Source of the DNA: Dehalococcoidia bacterium
GTDB taxonomy: Bacteria > Chloroflexota > Dehalococcoidia > Dehalococcoidales > RBG-16-60-22
Direction: 5' to 3'
NCBI GenBank assembly: GCA_011192005.1
Contig: DUFB01000086.1
Span: 1-35,152, forward strand
DNA: 35,152 bases
The position numbers and the translations under genes were made by a program. How positions within the stretch are numbered: position 1 is the stretch's first letter; each line of letters starts with the position of its first letter. The notes under the pieces are model-generated. The model was not told the DNA's origin. It did no database searches and saw only the letters and a program-made list of their open reading frames with translations. Below are positions 1,555 to 27,326 of the stretch, piece by piece.

Positions 1555-1599
1555 ATTAATAATATTCCCAGTACACATGTGAGCGGAGTAGTGCACACT

Positions 1600-2103
1600 A
1601 TGTCAACAAACGCATATTGCGACAGGGATAAGATAATTGAAAAAATCTCCGTCTCACCGATTAACGGTTCCCGCGAAGTTGTGTCCGAAGGGCCTTCCTG
1701 GCGGGCGAAAAGCCGCGGTGAGAGCATGTATCCCCTGATAAAAAACGGAGATACCCTGCTTATCGAGCCAAGGAAAGCCGATGAGCTTCATCCCGGTGAT
1801 ATCGTAATATATCGTGTTCCGTCAGGCAGCTTCATAGCCCACAGATTTATAAAGAGAAACGTCTCCGGCTCATTGTTAACCAATGGTGATAGCATGCGGC
1901 AATACGATAAACTGGTGGCTGAAGAGCAGGTATTCGGAAAGGTTATCCAGATAGAACGCAATAGTAGAATCCTGAAGCTGGAAGGCAGACTGAACGGGCT
2001 TAACACACTACTCATCACATGGCTGGCCCAATACCGTGTGCCGCTGCAGATAACCATAAAAAAAATGCTGGGCAGGATTCAATGGCTTACTGGATTCCGG
2101 TAG
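1600..2103 (+). CDS. S24/S26-family signal peptidase I-like protein
   Basis: SRGESMYPLIKNGDTLLIEPRKADELHPGDIVIYRVPSGSFIAHRFIKR matches the SxSMxP and later catalytic boxes. ORF track starts at 1579; an internal ATG at 1600 is equally possible. Confidence 0.8.
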   Translation: MSTNAYCDRDKIIEKISVSPINGSREVVSEGPSWRAKSRGESMYPLIKNGDTLLIEPRKADELHPGDIVIYRVPSGSFIAHRFIKRNVSGSLLTNGDSMRQYDKLVAEEQVFGKVIQIERNSRILKLEGRLNGLNTLLITWLAQYRVPLQITIKKMLGRIQWLTGFR

Positions 2104-2108
2104 GTGCT

Positions 2109-3122
2109 ATGAACGCAGCGATAAATATCGAAAATTTAACCAAGAGATTTCCCCGGACATCCGGCTACCGCGATCTACTGCCTTTCAGACTCAGGGAGTG
2201 GGTCGAGGCGGTGAAAAACGTCAGCCTGGAGATTAGGGATGGCGAATTTTTCGGTATGCTCGGACCCAACGGTGCGGGAAAGACCACCCTGATAAAAATG
2301 CTGTGCTGCTTGGTACTGCCCAATTCGGGTACAGCCCGGGTGTTCGGACATGATGTCGCCAGAGACGCACAATCCGTAAAAGAAACGGTAGGACTAATCA
2401 GCGCCGAAGAAAGGAGTTTCTACTGGCGTCTTACCGGACGTGAGAACCTCCGGTTTTACGCCTCCCTGTACCATCTCCCCCAAAAACAGGCCAGCGCTCG
2501 CATCAACAAACTGCTGGAGCTCGTTGGTCTTGCCGACGATGGTGACACCAGATTTCAGAACTACTCCACCGGGATGCGTCAGAAACTCGCCATAGCCAGA
2601 GGCCTGCTCAGCGAACCCCGTCTCCTCTTCGTCGATGAACCAACCCGCAGCCTCGACCCCGTCAGTGCCCAGACGGTACGGATTTTCCTCAAGGACAAGA
2701 TAGCCGCCGAGGGGAAAACGGTCGTTCTGGCAACGCATAACCTGAACGAAGCCGAACAGCTCTGCGACCGCCTGGCAATTATGGACCGTGGCCATCTCAA
2801 GGCGGTGGGAACGGTCAGCGAATTACGGACCATATTTCAGACTCAGGAAGAGTGCGTGCTGGAGGTCGGTAATTACTCTGAGTCCATCCTGAACCAGCTG
2901 AGGGCTATAGATGGCGTACTCGACTGCAACCTGACGGAAACGCATGACGGTTTGGTAAAACTGAAGATGGTAATTTCAAATCGTGCGGCGGTATTACCCC
3001 ATATCATGAAGGTGACAGTGAACAGCGGTGCTGATATTATGGACTGCCAGCTGGACCCGCTGCCGCTTGAAGAGATATTCCTGCACGCCCTGCATACTGA
3101 TACGGGCAAGGAGAATGGCTAA
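2109..3122 (+). CDS. ABC transporter ATP-binding protein
   Basis: Walker A GPNGAGKTT, signature YSTGMRQKLAIARGL, Walker B LLFVDEP. Start at 2109 (MNAAINIENLTKRF) avoids the long overlap of the track start at 2019. Confidence 0.92.
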   Translation: MNAAINIENLTKRFPRTSGYRDLLPFRLREWVEAVKNVSLEIRDGEFFGMLGPNGAGKTTLIKMLCCLVLPNSGTARVFGHDVARDAQSVKETVGLISAEERSFYWRLTGRENLRFYASLYHLPQKQASARINKLLELVGLADDGDTRFQNYSTGMRQKLAIARGLLSEPRLLFVDEPTRSLDPVSAQTVRIFLKDKIAAEGKTVVLATHNLNEAEQLCDRLAIMDRGHLKAVGTVSELRTIFQTQEECVLEVGNYSESILNQLRAIDGVLDCNLTETHDGLVKLKMVISNRAAVLPHIMKVTVNSGADIMDCQLDPLPLEEIFLHALHTDTGKENG

Positions 3123-3926
3123 ATGTCTGTTGCGGGCGCTTTTATCAAGCGCGATTTTTCCCAGGCAATAAGTTACCGCTTCTCCTTTATGCTGCAAATC
3201 GGCGGTGTCTTCTTCAGCGTGGCCATCTTCTATTTCCTGTCAGAGCTTTTCGGAGGGGCTATCGCGCCGCAGCTTGAGGCCTACGGTGGCAATTACTTCT
3301 CTTTCGTCCTTATCGGGCTGGCCTTTACCGGGTTTTTGGGACTCTCACTTTCCAGCTTTGCTACAAGCATCCGTGAGGGACAGGTAATGGGTACTCTGGA
3401 AATAATGCTCCTCAGCCCCACCCGTCTCAGCACCATCCTTATTTGCTCATCATTGTGGGGATATGTGATGATGATATTCCGGGTGGTGCTGTACCTGGTA
3501 GTCGGAGCATTTATTTTCGGGGCTGACCTGGGTGGTGCCAACATCGGTGGAGCATTACTGATAATGCTTCTTTCTATAGCCAGCTTTACCGGATTCGGGG
3601 TCCTTTCTGCAGCACTGGTGCTTATCGTGAAAAAAGGCGACCCGGTGGCGATAATGCTCAACGGTGCATCCAGTCTGCTGGCAGGAGTGTTCTATCCGGT
3701 AGCCGTACTCCCCGACTGGCTGGAGCCAGTCTCCAAGGTCTTGCCCCTGACCTACGCTCTGGATTCCATGAGACTGGCCATGTTGCAGGGAAAATCTATA
3801 TACGAGCTCCGGTATGACATCCTGGTGCTTTTGGCTTTTACCCTTGTCCTGACACCCCTGTCTTTCCTTGTATTCAGGAGAGCTCTGAAGAAAGCCAAGA
3901 TGGAAGGAAGCCTGATACAATACTAA
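3123..3926 (+). CDS. ABC-2 type permease
   Basis: Six hydrophobic segments and the ABC-2 C-terminal pattern (FYPVAVLPDWLEPVSKVLPLTYALDSMR). Adjacent to the ATPase. Confidence 0.88.
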   Translation: MSVAGAFIKRDFSQAISYRFSFMLQIGGVFFSVAIFYFLSELFGGAIAPQLEAYGGNYFSFVLIGLAFTGFLGLSLSSFATSIREGQVMGTLEIMLLSPTRLSTILICSSLWGYVMMIFRVVLYLVVGAFIFGADLGGANIGGALLIMLLSIASFTGFGVLSAALVLIVKKGDPVAIMLNGASSLLAGVFYPVAVLPDWLEPVSKVLPLTYALDSMRLAMLQGKSIYELRYDILVLLAFTLVLTPLSFLVFRRALKKAKMEGSLIQY

Positions 3927-3952
3927 ACCAGCTAGAATAATTCAAGAGTGAA

Positions 3953-5170
3953 ATGCTACAACAAACAATGATACATAGCCAGATAGAGAATAAAGAAGAG
4001 TTTAAAAACAGGCGTTTTGTAACCGGTAAACGAGCCGCCAGGGAAATATTGCTCCTCGGTACTACTACTAGCTTATCGCCTGATAATTTAAAACGGCTGT
4101 CAAAGATTCTGGCGGGGAATGTAAACTGGGAATACCTGCTTGATCTGGCCAAATACCATGGGGTTGCTCCCCTGCTGGCACACAATCTTACCAGGTTTAA
4201 CCTCACTGACAAAGTGCCTGAAATATACGCAGAACGACTTAACCGTATCTATTCCGATAACATACATAGAAGTATTTTCCTTTCCGATGAACTTACTAGA
4301 ATCCTCTCAATATTCAATCAGAACGATATAGATGTTATCACCCTGAAGGGTACCGTTCTCGGCGAGCAACTTTATGTCAATCCAGGATTACGCACTACCA
4401 ATGACATAGATGTTCTGGTACAACCGGATAAAGTAATTCAAGCCAGCTCTCTTCTGGAAGGAATGGACTATACAAGGTACATAATGCCGAAAAAACCACT
4501 GCATCCTTTTCACCGGATATATATCAAGAAGGCAAGATTTCCGTTTATCGTGGAACTTCACTGGGATTTGCACGACCCCAAATTAGAAGTGGTCAAGCGG
4601 GAGGAAATCTGGCGTCGGGCCAGGCAATACCAGTACCAGGGAGGCAACACGATGGTACCTTCACCCGAAGATACCCTGTTATACATAGCCACAAAACTGC
4701 TGGTACACGACGAAAAGCATTTCAAACACCTTGTAGACATTAATGAGATAATCAGGAAGTACCGGAACAACCTTGACTGGGATTACATCGTCAGGACGGA
4801 GAAGTCTCTGGGAATCACCGCCATAATCTACTACGCCCTAAAATGGGCTCAAGAGCTACTGGAAGCACCGGTACCCGAATCAGTCATGAAGGCGCTGAAA
4901 CCGTCATTAACACGACGTTGTCTGATCAGCTGGCTGACCTATCACAGAATTCTGATATCACCGGAGGGCTGGACTAAAATAAACAACGAGATAAAGACTC
5001 TGGCGTACAGCCTGATGATGGGCAAGCGACGACAGGCCTTTGTCGTAATGGCGCAGTACCGGGGGTATGATAAAAGAGCAATATGGCTGAGGACACTAGC
5101 CTGGATACCGCTTGTACTTGGGGCAACCATATGGATAAATTTTCTGAATTTGTACGCTGGAAAATCATGA
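3953..5170 (+). CDS. nucleotidyltransferase family protein (PF14907-like)
   Basis: VITLKGTVLGEQLYVNPGLRTTNDIDVLV, typical of this nucleotidyltransferase fold. Co-directional with the ABC operon. Confidence 0.75.
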   Translation: MLQQTMIHSQIENKEEFKNRRFVTGKRAAREILLLGTTTSLSPDNLKRLSKILAGNVNWEYLLDLAKYHGVAPLLAHNLTRFNLTDKVPEIYAERLNRIYSDNIHRSIFLSDELTRILSIFNQNDIDVITLKGTVLGEQLYVNPGLRTTNDIDVLVQPDKVIQASSLLEGMDYTRYIMPKKPLHPFHRIYIKKARFPFIVELHWDLHDPKLEVVKREEIWRRARQYQYQGGNTMVPSPEDTLLYIATKLLVHDEKHFKHLVDINEIIRKYRNNLDWDYIVRTEKSLGITAIIYYALKWAQELLEAPVPESVMKALKPSLTRRCLISWLTYHRILISPEGWTKINNEIKTLAYSLMMGKRRQAFVVMAQYRGYDKRAIWLRTLAWIPLVLGATIWINFLNLYAGKS

Positions 5171-5271
5171 GATAAAGTAGTATTGTACCCTCATAATCGA
5201 CTGGCTAATTTAATATAAGTAGTTCAAAATAAAGCTTAATCAAAAATGGTGTAATATTTCTGAAGGATAGC

Positions 5272-6303
5272 ATGAATATACGGATTTTCTTTTTATGGCT
5301 GCTAGACATCCTGGGAATAAATGCTTTGTTGAGCAGACTGAATCGCAGAAAAGTACTCATTCTCTGGTACCATGGTATTTGCGATGACAGCTTTACTCAA
5401 TTAAAGGGTTATGACGACAGGTTCATTACCAGATCATCCTTTATGAAACAAATGGAATATCTTAAAAATAAAAGTTATAACCTCATAACCATGACTGAAT
5501 TAATAAATACCATCAAGAATAACGGAGAGTTTAATAAAAATGTTGTCCTTACCTTTGACGACGGCCTGAAGAATGTTATAAAAAATGCCTACCCCATCAT
5601 GCAGGAATACAACGCCAAGGGTTGTCTTTACGTGGTCTCCGATAATACAGGAATGGATACGCTAATCTGGTCAGACCATGTGGAAACGTTAATAAATAGT
5701 CAAAAGCCGGGAGAGTTCCTGTTCTTCTTCAAAGGTAAGAAATATACTTATATTTTATCTGACATGAAATCCTACGAATATGCGATAAAAGACATTAAAA
5801 AGAAACTCCGCAGTATTACAAACAAAGAAATGCAGGAACACCTCAAACAATTTACTCAAGTCGAGAAAGAAAATCTTCCCGAAGAGTATACTCTTGCCAG
5901 CTGGGACGAACTAAAAGAACTCGACGCCGAAATACTTGAAATCGGAAGTCATACCCGAACTCATCCCAACTGTGCCAATCTAACTGATGATGTTGAGCTT
6001 GAAAATGAAATACTTCATTCAAAAGAGGAGATTGAGAATATAATCGGCCGAAAAGTCGAGCATTTTTGCTATCCCGCAGGTTCCTATAACCGGCGCGTCC
6101 TCGATGAAGTAAAAGCCTCAGGCTATCAATCAGCAGTAACTATTGAATATGGTTTTATTGATAAGCATGCAGATTTATACCGACTAAAACGGGTTGAAGC
6201 GCTTGCGTCACTGCCGATCTTTAAATCACGAGTTTCGGGAGCTTACGGAATTCTCAGGGCTTTCAGTCAAATTTTTCGCAGGCGTTCATTCCGGATAGAA
6301 TAA
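5272..6303 (+). CDS. polysaccharide deacetylase (NodB homology)
   Basis: VVLTFDDGLKNV, IGSHTRTHPN and HFCYPAGSYN NodB motifs. Confidence 0.9.
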   Translation: MNIRIFFLWLLDILGINALLSRLNRRKVLILWYHGICDDSFTQLKGYDDRFITRSSFMKQMEYLKNKSYNLITMTELINTIKNNGEFNKNVVLTFDDGLKNVIKNAYPIMQEYNAKGCLYVVSDNTGMDTLIWSDHVETLINSQKPGEFLFFFKGKKYTYILSDMKSYEYAIKDIKKKLRSITNKEMQEHLKQFTQVEKENLPEEYTLASWDELKELDAEILEIGSHTRTHPNCANLTDDVELENEILHSKEEIENIIGRKVEHFCYPAGSYNRRVLDEVKASGYQSAVTIEYGFIDKHADLYRLKRVEALASLPIFKSRVSGAYGILRAFSQIFRRRSFRIE

Positions 6304-6371
6304 ATAGATGACCTATCATGGTCACGTGTTTTTAGAAGTAATAAATTAATGAGAAACGAGGGGCTATCAAT

Positions 6372-7646
6372 ATGAAAACAAACCTGGAAAAATCAGTGGT
6401 CTGCATCATCGGGTTGGGGTACGTGGGCCTGCCCCTAGCCGAAGCTTTTGCCAAAAGACTGCAAGTAATCGGCTACGATATTAACAGTAAAAGAATAGCC
6501 GGGTTAAGTAAGAGCCATGCCATCAATAACCTCACATTTACCGATAAACCTGCAATGATAGCCCAGGCTGACTTTATCATTATCTGCGTACCGACACCGG
6601 TGACACAGTCCAAAGAGCCTGACCTCAGCCTCGTTGAGAGTGCGGCTACTACCACCGGTAAGAACCTGAAAAGAGGCAGCATTGTTATCCTGGAATCGAC
6701 GGTATATCCCGGCGTGACCGAGGAGATCGTCAGACCGATTCTGGAAAAAGAATCTGGGCTCACATGCGGTGAGGATTTCAAGATTGCCTATGCCCCCGAA
6801 AGAGTCAATCCCGGCGACAAAGAGCATACCATCGATAAGATAGTTAAAGTTGTCTCAGGAATGGACGAGGAAACAGCCGAAATAGTGGAAAAACTTTACA
6901 GCGTCATATTCCCCAACGTATATAAAGCCAGGGATATTAAGACAGCCGAAGCCGCCAAGGTTATAGAAAATATCCAGCGCGATTTGAACATAGCGTTGAT
7001 GAACGAACTATCAGTCATCTTTGATAAGCTTAACATCGATACTAAAGACGTACTGGATGCAGCATCTACCAAATGGAATTTCCACCGCTACTCCCCCGGT
7101 CTCGTTGGCGGGCACTGCATCCCGGTTGACCCCTATTACCTGGTCCATAGAGCCAAGCAATACGGCTATAACGCGCAGGTGATTCTGGCAGGCAGAGCTA
7201 TCAACGATTCCATGGGCAAGCACGTTGCCGAGATAACCATAAAAGCCCTTAATGAAGTCGGTAAAGTTATCAAGGGCTCCAGGATTCTCATCATGGGCCT
7301 TACTTATAAAGAGAATGTACCTGATACCCGGGAAACACCCGTCAAGCAGGTAATTAAGGAACTCAGGGGATACGGTATTACGGTCTTCGGCTATGACCCC
7401 ATGCTGGATATGGCCGAAGCCGAAGAGGAATATGGTATAAAAATCCTTGATAACATGGACCAGGAAACCGGTTTCGATGGGATCATCGTGGCAGTGGCGC
7501 ATGACATTTTCATGGAATCCGGGCTAACGATAAACATCGACAAACTGGTCAAGGTAACTGGCGAAAGACCGGTATTGGTGGACGTGAAAAGATGTGTCGA
7601 CGCCACCGAAGCGCGTAAAAAAGGCTTTTACTACCGTACACTGTAA
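6372..7646 (+). CDS. UDP-N-acetyl-hexosamine 6-dehydrogenase (TviB/WbpA-like)
   Basis: IIGLGYVGLPLAEAFAKR; AYAPERVNPGD; LVGGHCIPVDPYYL. Confidence 0.9.
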   Translation: MKTNLEKSVVCIIGLGYVGLPLAEAFAKRLQVIGYDINSKRIAGLSKSHAINNLTFTDKPAMIAQADFIIICVPTPVTQSKEPDLSLVESAATTTGKNLKRGSIVILESTVYPGVTEEIVRPILEKESGLTCGEDFKIAYAPERVNPGDKEHTIDKIVKVVSGMDEETAEIVEKLYSVIFPNVYKARDIKTAEAAKVIENIQRDLNIALMNELSVIFDKLNIDTKDVLDAASTKWNFHRYSPGLVGGHCIPVDPYYLVHRAKQYGYNAQVILAGRAINDSMGKHVAEITIKALNEVGKVIKGSRILIMGLTYKENVPDTRETPVKQVIKELRGYGITVFGYDPMLDMAEAEEEYGIKILDNMDQETGFDGIIVAVAHDIFMESGLTINIDKLVKVTGERPVLVDVKRCVDATEARKKGFYYRTL

Positions 7647-8464
7647 TGATTAAGCGATTCGCCGTAAAACGTATAGCCCTGTGCCTGACTTTTTTCCTTA
7701 TTATACTCGGGGTTATTTTCATCCTTCTCGATATACTTGATATCGCCGAGGACTTCCGGCTGCACTGGTCCACAGCGGTTATCAACACCATATTCATCAG
7801 TGTCGTTGCCGTGTTCATCATTTATTTCGCCACCAAGAATTACCTCCGTTCCAGTTCTCCGGAGACACTGGCCCTCGGGGGAGGCGCGCTGGCTTTCGGA
7901 TTCGCTATTATCCTTTACGGGTGGCTGCCGAATTCCGACCTGAATACACGCTACACCGAATACGATAGCGGTGTGTTTATAGCCTCGGCGATATACCTGA
8001 CAGGGGCTATTTTAAGTATAAATAGCCAAAACACTCCTATCCAGAAAATAGGGTTGAATATACTGAGTATCACTGCAATCTACATCGGTATTGTATTGAT
8101 TATCAGCATCCTTACCTGGCTGGCTTACAAGGACATTATAACGTTCCTCACGCATACATTTTCAGTACATTTCTCTGCCAGGGACATCGTGCAGGGAATA
8201 GCGGCTGTTTTCTGCGTGAGCGCGGCGTTGATTTACCTTAAGAAATACCGCGAGTTACGGCATGATATATATTTCTGGTATTCTCTGGGTTTGATACTCT
8301 TCGCGGCGGGAGTCATCTTCATATCCCGAGGACCGCTGGAGGGTCGGATTGCCTGGCTGGGAAGAGCAGCGGAGTATGTCAGCTATTTCTACTTTCTCAT
8401 AGCCTCACTGAGCGCCTGTAAGCAGTCGGGTGAAAAGAGAATAGCGAATAACAAGGATATCTAA
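7646..8464 (+). CDS. multi-TM protein resembling a stand-alone MASE3-type sensory membrane domain
   Basis: About 8 hydrophobic segments. C-terminal LGRAAEYVSYFYFLIASLSACKQ resembles the last helix of membrane sensor domains normally fused to PAS/HK, but the ORF stops there. Confidence 0.5.
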   Translation: MIKRFAVKRIALCLTFFLIILGVIFILLDILDIAEDFRLHWSTAVINTIFISVVAVFIIYFATKNYLRSSSPETLALGGGALAFGFAIILYGWLPNSDLNTRYTEYDSGVFIASAIYLTGAILSINSQNTPIQKIGLNILSITAIYIGIVLIISILTWLAYKDIITFLTHTFSVHFSARDIVQGIAAVFCVSAALIYLKKYRELRHDIYFWYSLGLILFAAGVIFISRGPLEGRIAWLGRAAEYVSYFYFLIASLSACKQSGEKRIANNKDI

Positions 8465-24947: not shown

Positions 24948-25211
24948 TCACCTTTTACTCATGTCAACCGGGAATTTATAGGCTGACTTGCGTTCTCGGG
25001 GGGTATCTTCCTCGAAGCTGGATTCATTAAACTCGGCGAGATATCGCATAATATCCTCGCGGCGGAACCTGCGGTCACCCCGACGAGTGATGCGATAGGA
25101 CTTGATGATACCCTGATCACTCCACCGCCTTGCCGTGTTGACATGGATGTGCAGGAGATGAGCCACGTCCTTTACGGTCAACATTGGTTTTATCTCATCG
25201 GAAGATAACAT
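24948..25211 (-). CDS. MerR/excisionase-type helix-turn-helix DNA-binding protein
   Basis: MLTVKDVAHLLHIHVNTARRWSDQGIIKSYRITRRGDRRFRREDIMRYLAE. Confidence 0.85.
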   Translation of the reverse strand: MLSSDEIKPMLTVKDVAHLLHIHVNTARRWSDQGIIKSYRITRRGDRRFRREDIMRYLAEFNESSFEEDTPRERKSAYKFPVDMSKR

Positions 25212-25320: not shown

Positions 25321-25505
25321 AAATACCCCGATATTTAACGAATGGACATCAGCAGGATTTAAAATACCCCGCTTTTTTAGATCACGAATATTCCTACTGG
25401 TTTCTAACCCATTGATAACTACTTATTAACAGTAATTCCATATATTTAAGGTGTGGTTGGCTGATATCAGGTCATCACTTAAATAGGACAGGGTATAAAT
25501 ACCCC
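25321..25505. repeat. three copies of AAATACCCC in the divergent intergenic region
   Basis: AAATACCCC at 25321-25329, 25362-25370 and 25497-25505. The first two also share a following G. Confidence 0.6.
25392..25446 (+). promoter_or_regulatory. 11-bp-phased direct-repeat array plus -10 (site P6), upstream of the HPrK-like/PqqD/RiPP operon
   Basis: TCCTACTGGTT TCTAACCCATT GATAACTACTT ATTAAC, 10 bp, TATATT. Repeats at 25392, 25403, 25414, 25425. Confidence 0.6.
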
Positions 25506-25511
25506 ATTTAA

Positions 25512-26471
25512 ATGGAGAAGCGGCCTAAAGAAATGAAAGCTTTACTACCGAAACGGGTAAATACCACTGAATTAGAAAGTACCCTAGGATTACAGATAGG
25601 GAGTATCTGTTGTGAATTGAGATGTAACGATCCCGAAATCCTCCGAAAGCTCCAGGATGTATACCGTAACTATCTGGTTGATGCCGAACCCGATGTTTTC
25701 GTAGAGTTAGAATTAACATCCCGCTTGAGTACCAGTAAAATCAGTTCAATTTTAACAAGAAGCAGATATATACGCCACGGGAATCGTTTCCGCAGTTCCG
25801 GGAGACTGCTCCAAGGGCAGTATGACCTGGACAGCCGCACCGTAAAGATCACAGGAGAGAAAGCACTGATAGATCCAGATAACAGTACCAATCTTCTGAA
25901 TCAGCTGATTTCCGTGTCATACTATTCTGCCTGTAAGATGAAATACGGGACCAATCCACCAGCCATGCTGGTGCACGCCTGCGGCATCCTGCGTAACGGA
26001 AAAATCCTCATTTTCGCCGGGCCCAGTAATATCGGGAAGACAACTATAGCCCGACTTTGCAGCGATAGACAAGGCGAGGTTTTCAACGATGAAATATTAC
26101 TGATGTCCCGCCCCGGTGTAAACGGGAAAGGTGTAATCATCCAGAACACGCCTATAATTGGTGATCTCCTGCCCGGACGGAACACCACGGCACCACTAAG
26201 ATGTATTTTTTTGCTCAAGCAGAATAACAGAACAGCCTGGCGTTATCTTGATAAAGCTGAGGCGTATTTACGCTTTATGCGTCAGATAATCGGCCCGTCA
26301 TGCGTGGGGAATTATGATAAAAAAACCGCCTACTCCATAATGGCGGATTTCAGTTCTGAAGTGGTTAAGTCCATCCCCATATACGAGCTTGAATTTAACA
26401 GGGACAGCGATACCCTCTGGCGAGTCACCGACGAACTTGAGGGAATAACAGGAGCGGAGTATCTGAATTGA
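25512..26471 (+). CDS. HPr-kinase-like P-loop protein of RiPP-associated type (SynChlorMet ScmC-like)
   Basis: MLVHACGILRNGKILIFAGPSNIGKTTIARLCSDRQGEVFNDEILLMSRP (Walker A GPSNIGKT plus HPrK-like context). Stop overlaps the start of the PqqD-like gene. Confidence 0.7.
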   Translation: MEKRPKEMKALLPKRVNTTELESTLGLQIGSICCELRCNDPEILRKLQDVYRNYLVDAEPDVFVELELTSRLSTSKISSILTRSRYIRHGNRFRSSGRLLQGQYDLDSRTVKITGEKALIDPDNSTNLLNQLISVSYYSACKMKYGTNPPAMLVHACGILRNGKILIFAGPSNIGKTTIARLCSDRQGEVFNDEILLMSRPGVNGKGVIIQNTPIIGDLLPGRNTTAPLRCIFLLKQNNRTAWRYLDKAEAYLRFMRQIIGPSCVGNYDKKTAYSIMADFSSEVVKSIPIYELEFNRDSDTLWRVTDELEGITGAEYLN

Positions 26472-26764
26472 AAACTATATATCCAGTGCAGAAAGACGAA
26501 GTAATCTGGCGGCGCATCGGCGACGCTATAGTAGTAATAAAGGAGGACGGGTTATCATCACACACGTTGAACAAGACCGCGTCTTTCATATGGGAATTAT
26601 GTGATGGAAATCTGGAAATAAACGAAATAGCTAAAAGACTAAACGAACGGTTTGATGTTTCTCTTGAGGATGCTCAAGCTGATGTGCATAATCTGATTGA
26701 GGAACTGACAACAGCCGATATTATAAAAAAATCAAAGGGTAAAAAGGATAAAATCAGGTATTAG
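26468..26764 (+). CDS. PqqD-family protein (RiPP recognition element-like)
   Basis: VIWRRIGDAIVVIKEDGLSSHTLNKTASFIWELCDGNLEINEIAKRLNERFDVSLEDAQADVHNLIEEL is a typical PqqD fold sequence. Confidence 0.85.
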   Translation: MKTIYPVQKDEVIWRRIGDAIVVIKEDGLSSHTLNKTASFIWELCDGNLEINEIAKRLNERFDVSLEDAQADVHNLIEELTTADIIKKSKGKKDKIRY

Positions 26765-26805
26765 CCGGTATTTTATAATATTGCCCATTTAGAAGAGGTT
26801 AGATT

Positions 26806-26973
26806 ATGAAAGAACCCTATATTAAACCCGCGGTAAAATCAGAAATCCTGGAGCCGGAAGCTCTTACCGGAGGCGGAAGTGGTATAGGTAATAACAGCGG
26901 AGGCACATGCTCGCCCGATAATAATGGAAGCTTTACATGTCAGGACGGTTGCTCAGTGGGTATTTGTCGATAA
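26806..26973 (+). CDS. putative RiPP precursor peptide, 55 aa, Cys/Gly-rich core
   Basis: Manual translation: MKEPYIKPAVKSEILEPEALTGGGSGIGNNSGGTCSPDNNGSFTCQDGCSVGICR*. AGAGG at 26793-26797 upstream. 41 nt after the PqqD gene and followed by a terminator. Too short for the ORF track. Confidence 0.75.
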   Translation: MKEPYIKPAVKSEILEPEALTGGGSGIGNNSGGTCSPDNNGSFTCQDGCSVGICR

Positions 26974-26999
26974 TATCTATCAAAGAAACACAAAAAATG

Positions 27000-27040
27000 A
27001 AGAGGATTCCAGACTAATATATCTGGAATCCTCTTTTCTT
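27000..27040 (+). terminator. rho-independent terminator of the HPrK-like/PqqD/peptide operon
   Basis: AAGAGGATTCCAGA-CTAATATA-TCTGGAATCCTCTTTTCTT: perfect 14-bp stem, 8-nt loop, T-rich tail. Confidence 0.9.
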
Positions 27041-27122: not shown

Positions 27123-27326
27123 ATGTCCTATCCAATAAGGGCTAAAGACCTCAGGATAAAGTTGTTCAGAAGCAACACGAATAAAGACCTGGAAAGTAAA
27201 GTAAACACATGGCTTTCGAACTGCGAGGAAGAGTTTGAGGTCATCGATGTTACTTTTGAGCGCTACTTTAATCCGGTAACGGAGAATGTAGTGACAACAG
27301 CAATTGTGGTGTTCCGCATAGTATAA
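27123..27326 (+). CDS. small protein, possibly Cse60-like
   Basis: 67 aa: IKLFRSNTNKDLESKVNTWLSNCEEEFEVIDVTFERYFNPVTENVVTTAIVVFRIV. Layout (charged helix, then beta strands, terminal hydrophobic strand) resembles the Cse60/DUF2758 family. GGGAGG just upstream. Confidence 0.5.
   Translation: MSYPIRAKDLRIKLFRSNTNKDLESKVNTWLSNCEEEFEVIDVTFERYFNPVTENVVTTAIVVFRIV

Follow-up and report, generated by a model that had tools for sequence, protein, structure and literature searches.

Can a kinase, a leader-binding protein and a short cysteine-rich peptide make up a RiPP pathway when no radical SAM enzyme is encoded beside them? The question is raised by a three-gene operon of a Dehalococcoidia bacterium (Chloroflexota; GenBank assembly GCA_011192005.1) on contig DUFB01000086.1, where the whole stretch of 35,152 nucleotides that was analyzed is referred to here as the window. 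The initial annotation described the operon as RiPP-like, and proposed either that a maturase acts in trans or that the operon is a maturase-lite variant whose chemistry is done by the kinase-like protein or other partners. We consider it probable that the window encodes an LPP-like system, that is, a linear, kinase-tailored and exported peptide whose making can do without a radical SAM enzyme. The known LPPs comprise a precursor, an HprK kinase, an RRE, a SipW-like peptidase, an NTP-transferase and a pump, lie in capsule loci without a cyclase, and are stated to be restricted to Bacillota (Popov et al. 2026, PMC13381572).

The host is represented by a single genome with an assembly about 80% complete, and no genome of the same genus was found for comparison. 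Two genomes that are often referred to below, G001 and G131, are presumably Dehalococcoidia as well, in view of their shared class and of what is known of RBG Chloroflexi.

The operon and its flanking DNA

The open reading frame list agrees with the initial annotation on the position, order, strand and spacing of the three genes, all on the plus strand. The HprK-like kinase gene (25512-26471, with an alternative ATG at 25533) is followed by the gene for a PqqD-type RRE (26468-26764), which starts with TTG and overlaps the kinase stop by 4 bp. The gene for the 55-aa precursor peptide (26806-26973) begins with an ATG 41 bp past the PqqD stop, and a GAGG Shine-Dalgarno-like stretch lies close 5' of it. 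As described earlier, there is no radical SAM gene among them, and the operon is followed by a perfect 14-bp inverted repeat (27000-27035), an intrinsic-terminator-like hairpin that scores as a terminator in both orientations. Just 3' of this hairpin, a 67-aa open reading frame (27123-27326) barely passes the cut-off for Spore_Cse60 (PF10957, 21.1 bits against 20.7); the host lineage is thought to be non-spore-forming.

The promoter-like array reported upstream of the kinase did not hold up. Sigma-70-like matches are about as frequent as in shuffled sequence (12 vs 7.1 +/- 2.4 over 2.7 kb, both strands), with just one on the plus strand in the gap 5' of the kinase. What this gap holds is three AAATACCCC repeats (25321-25505, plus strand, starting at 25321, 25362 and 25497), which may serve as an operator. 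The pattern AWATACCCC occurs four times in the window against 0.76 expected, a count reached by 2 of 100 shuffles; repeats of the AAATACCCC type were not seen upstream of the paralogous operon on contig C66 of the same genome. Divergent from the operon is a BldC/MerR-type HTH regulator (24948-25211, minus strand; PF12728, 52.3 bits), a possible regulator of the cassette. Its homologues are found beside the NTP_transf_5 gene of the G001 C30 cassette (56% identity) and, twice, at the G001 C35 locus (72% and 42%).

The kinase and the recognition element

Taken as a single sequence, the kinase matches HPr-kinase profiles weakly (TIGR04355, 26.7 bits, cut-off 200), so that the earlier label of HPr-kinase-like gains its footing at the family level. 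Within the kinase family, HprK_rel_B is matched by 17 of the 19 members and Hpr_kinase_C by 5, and hhalign of the family against an annotated HPr kinase gives 96%. Among PDB sequences, the HprK 1jb1 is matched over the catalytic core at E=1.5e-4, and the search otherwise returned mostly P-loop noise. The catalytic residues H148, the P-loop GPSNIGKT and N185-D186-E187 (312-aa numbering) are intact. The AlphaFold model has a pLDDT of 38 and leaves the fold unconfirmed; the assignment as an HprK-like kinase of the LppK/PadeK kind, made from profiles and motif, holds for the family. A plasmid search with the kinase gave no match.

The second gene encodes a discrete RiPP recognition element that belongs firmly to the PqqD family (PF05402, 59.9 bits, cut-off 23.4), in agreement with the first reading of this protein. 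Its AlphaFold model (pLDDT 82) has leader-bound lasso B1 RREs as best structural matches, with TM-scores of 0.72-0.87 against TbiB1 (5v1u/5v1v) and TfuB1 (6jx3). N35 and D72 align with N33 and D70 of LppB, the residues that fix the leader Pro and Tyr of YxxP, and the comparison with LppB (9x8z), the sole LPP-clade RRE compared, gave E=0.098. The protein can be described as LppB/B1-like.

The co-occurrence of kinase-like, PqqD-like and short-peptide genes had suggested a SynChlorMet-like cassette, and a diverged member of that type (ScmA/C/D) would explain that the kinase matches ScmC and the PqqD protein ScmD. These matches stay below all curated cut-offs (19.8 of 125 and 32.2 of 100 bits, respectively), PqqD and lasso models give the PqqD protein a higher score, and no ScmE/ScmF-type radical SAM pair was found in the assembled genome (~80% complete). 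SynChlorMet membership was therefore rejected, and we see hardly any room for a diverged form of it.

The precursor peptide

The 55-aa sequence and the four Cys at positions 35, 45, 49 and 54 were given correctly in the initial annotation. In other genomes, the short open reading frames that directly follow homologues of the kinase/PqqD(/radical SAM) genes have in common the leader K/R-x-x-Y-x-x-P-x-[IV]-[KR]-S-E-x-[LI]-E. A profile built from seven relatives' leaders, with the window peptide left out, was run against all 986 frames of the window and ranks the precursor first (E=2.9e-8), the runner-up frame standing at E=1; the precursor is therefore not a chance frame. The initial annotation is supported in its calls of a RiPP operon, of the RRE role of the PqqD protein and of the precursor. 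When the own genome was scanned with a DNA pattern for more leaders, only the window and one match on contig C77 came up, near the level of a reversed-pattern control.

We divide the peptide into a leader, M1-T21, with the RRE motif YIKP, and a putative core, G22-R55, with the four Cys; the best guess for cleavage is after A-L-T (Thr21). In LPPs, LppK adds phosphates to core Ser3 (PMC13381572). Ser25 (codon 26878-26880, plus strand) is the candidate phosphorylation site in the window peptide, from this parallel and from its place at Tyr+20, where a Ser is common to the three closest peptides, those of the window, C66 and G001 C9.

Relatives with and without a radical SAM enzyme

In the kinase tree, the window kinase groups with the C66 copy of the same genome and with G001 C9 (100/98); G131 C6 joins next (96/92), followed by the methane-oxidizing archaea of ANME-1 (87/82). 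A SPASM radical SAM gene lies between PqqD and the peptide in five of the five nearest loci outside the genome (G001 C9, G131 C6 and three of ANME-1), and is absent from the window and C66 cassettes, both of which are contig-internal. Since branching within the clade of window, C66 and G001 C9 is weak (88/55), one and two losses of the radical SAM gene are not separable.

The C66 gene set (L029, minus strand; 7155-8129, 6908-7213, 6606-6725 and 4759-6444) belongs to a locus with a second HprK-PqqD-peptide operon, whose precursor is MKKETYVEPEIKSRPLEAEAMGTNLSGAGDGDTPYTNQR. Just 3' of the operon lies a gene for a B12-binding radical SAM protein with a C-terminal TPR, a type that was not found in 40 relatives.

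The nearest loci invite the explanation that the window precursor, and perhaps that of C66, is modified in trans by a SPASM maturase whose gene lies elsewhere, and that the product is a Cys peptide with crosslinks like those of the relatives. The four Cys kept in the window core would fit, the assembly is about 80% complete, and contig C101 encodes a second SPASM protein. However, both own cassettes lack the enzyme within their contigs, and the C66 precursor has no Cys. A search of the own ~80% complete assembly found no cassette-type SPASM enzyme, and the only three SPASM proteins that it did find are MftC, a weak one, and one whose gene adjoins that of an MftF-like glycosyltransferase. The SPASM enzyme on C54 was rejected as a trans maturase, as it is MftC (360 bits to TIGR03962) and adjoins MftB. 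We consider maturation in trans unlikely; the other proposal of the initial annotation, chemistry by the kinase, fared better and is the reading we prefer, since LPPs are made in just this way. A maturase-lite system of this kind is then less exotic than was first thought.

In the same genome, C54 (L042) and C101 (L043) carry the mycofactocin genes MftB/MftC and MftF, and the second SPASM protein, on C101, lies beside MftF and ETF/FixC-like genes.

A second gene block in a polysaccharide locus

A second half of the system, and its link to polysaccharide genes, were overlooked by the initial annotation. It lies at 1579-5170, about 20 kb upstream of the kinase operon and on the same strand. The first gene (1579-2103) encodes an archaeal-type (Ser-His-Asp) S26/SipW-like signal peptidase, a candidate LppS-like leader peptidase, with 50.0 bits to TIGR02228, just below the cut-off of 51.85. 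Its S49, H88 and D104 are invariant in eight cassette homologues, and the S-H spacing of 39 is that of LppS. Next come an ABC transporter ATPase (2109-3122; PF00005, 105.6 bits), a candidate exporter that is 66% identical to its counterpart in the G001 C30 cassette and 50% to that of ANME-1, and its permease-like membrane partner (3123-3926; 68% and 49%). The last gene (3953-5170) encodes an LppN/PsmN-like NTP_transf_5 nucleotidyltransferase (PF14907, 195.5 bits), which is 40% identical to the G001 C30 protein. Altogether, identities of the ABC and NTP-transferase proteins span 40-68% with G001 C30 and 33-50% with the ANME-1 locus L050. Of 21 genomes searched, three have NTP_transf_5, among them the two with the kinase, and the window gene is the single copy in the own assembled genome. 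On a plasmid of Halopiger, a homologue is found close to lasso genes, and on one of Crinalium close to genes for HPr kinase and PqqD.

We assign this block to the system because its genes are contiguous with the cassette in G001 C30, where HprK, PqqD, SPASM, peptide, S26, two ABC genes and NTP_transf_5 form one run, because L050 has these parts together in a stretch of about 9 kb, and because of the NTP_transf_5 profile. Between the two blocks of the window are two UDP-sugar dehydrogenases, a sugar transferase, Gfo/Idh, DegT, glycosyltransferases and deacetylases. Homologues of such polysaccharide genes also border the loci G131 C47, G001 C30 and G001 C35.

The distance between the halves could also mark a decaying cassette, in which the genes for kinase, RRE and peptide have outlasted the radical SAM gene and no longer give a useful product. 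In line with this, the G001 C35 locus (L032, 7135-10362), which is syntenic to the window locus (deacetylase, HTH), has an HprK-like protein without a P-loop, and neither PqqD nor a peptide. Yet in the window all frames are intact, the catalytic and leader-binding residues are kept, the ribosome-binding site and terminator are present, and so are intact peptidase, exporter and NTP-transferase genes; moreover, two diverged copies persist in one genome. Decay is thus, in our judgment, quite improbable.

The proposed pathway

In the LPP-like pathway that we favor, PqqD would bind the YIKP leader and present the precursor, and the HprK-like kinase would phosphorylate a Ser close to the N-terminal end of the core, with Ser25 as the best guess. 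The SipW-like peptidase would then remove the leader, and the phosphate may receive a nucleotide or a sugar from NTP_transf_5. Export would fall to the ABC pair; the product may act together with the neighboring exopolysaccharide machinery. Outside the cell, the four Cys may form disulfides. For comparison, the LPP peptidase cuts with the help of the RRE (PMC13381572), and PsmN has been linked to hexosylation of phospho-Ser (PMC9266682).

This reading is preferred because the leader homology is far above chance, the RRE has both the fold and the leader-holding residues, and the catalytic residues of the kinase are kept. Further reasons are the linkage of the two halves in G001 C30 and L050, the co-occurrence of NTP_transf_5 with the kinase, the peptidase triad and spacing, a polysaccharide context like that of LPPs, and the Ser at Tyr+20, which is found even in the Cys-free C66 peptide. 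As the parts list is that of LPPs, no radical SAM enzyme need be missing.

Comparison with known systems

The window system resembles LPPs in its discrete PqqD-type RRE with equivalents of LppB N33 and D70, its HprK-like kinase with catalytic residues, its Ser-His-Asp archaeal-type SipW-like peptidase, its NTP-transferase (of PF14907 in the window), its YxxPx[V/I] leader, its capsule/EPS locus, and its lack of a cyclase and a radical SAM enzyme. Several differences count against the likeness. The kinase carries H-K-D-E where the lasso kinases PadeK and ThcoK have H-K-D-D, which they need (review PMC9266682), the second Asp being replaced by Glu. The exporter consists of an ABC ATPase and a membrane protein from two genes and is not MsbA-like, and of the LPP consensus YxxPxVLxHQxIxFETxxS only YxxPxV is present in the window leader YIKPAVKSEILEPEALTGGGS, LxHQxIxFET being absent. 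The system is split into two blocks 20 kb apart, the core has four Cys, unreported for LPPs, and the five nearest loci carry a SPASM radical SAM gene. In addition, the host belongs to Chloroflexota and not to Bacillota, and the candidate Ser is at Tyr+20 compared with Tyr+18 in LPPs. As to the LPP trait of an archaeal-type peptidase gene within 12 kb of the RRE, the window has the peptidase with its triad, at a distance of about 24 kb; in relatives the gene adjoins the cassette. The window system would work like an LPP system while differing from LPPs proper in leader consensus, pump type and contiguity, and we call it LPP-like.

Phosphorylated lasso peptides of the paeninodin/pseudomycoidin type (PadeK, PsmK, PsmN) have in common with the window an RRE, an HprK kinase with an H-K-D core, an NTP-transferase and a [Y/W]xxP leader. 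However, the window leader has Tyr and not Trp, its C-terminus is Arg and not the Ser phosphorylated by PadeK, and no AsnB-like macrolactam cyclase or B2 peptidase was seen among the window open reading frames near the operon. The SPASM cassettes of Chloroflexota and ANME-1 match the window by homology of kinase, RRE, leader, peptidase, ABC pair and NTP-transferase, and frequently lie among polysaccharide genes; they differ by the radical SAM gene, which as in ranthi- and sactipeptide systems is next to the precursor in the G001, G131 and ANME-1 loci and is absent at the window.

Evolution and significance

The RRE/kinase/signal-peptidase/NTP-transferase/exporter toolkit is present also in Chloroflexota and in ANME-1 archaea, and is tied to polysaccharide loci in several Chloroflexota genomes, with the radical SAM enzyme as an optional module that is present, absent or swapped. 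We tentatively propose a lineage-specific switch, in which an RRE, SPASM and HprK family of Dehalococcoidia and ANME-1 lost the radical SAM gene at both own loci, a B12 radical SAM replacing it at one, and left a kinase-only, LPP-like product; it may have happened, though we would not give it even odds. If true, the switch would bring LPPs and radical-SAM RiPPs together as a single family, with a range that reaches past Bacillota and includes archaea. Precursors of one family, some with radical SAM chemistry and others without it, offer a natural comparison, and phosphorylation of Ser25 and cleavage after Thr21 are concrete, testable predictions.

No paper describing PqqD-SPASM-Cys peptide-HprK cassettes of Chloroflexota or ANME-1 was found in the open-access literature. 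Cassettes of the type PqqD-SPASM-Cys peptide-HprK(-S26), with [VI]LxxC at the core start, are present in other Chloroflexota (L046, L081, L083-L086, L088, L090, L091, L094-L096), several of them beside secreted proteins of ~1000 aa. In the Methanophagales/ANME-1 MAGs (L048, L049, L050), archaeal HprK-PqqD-SPASM-peptide cassettes are followed by a large secreted protein, and in L050 additionally by S26, the ABC pair and NTP_transf_5. Finally, a PqqD-HprK pair without radical SAM on contig C37 of G131 (L098, 4884-6834) is preceded by a 225-aa Tat-type protein, which has YVKPSLLTV, an RRE-like YxxPxL motif, in its signal region, as well as GYWKNW.
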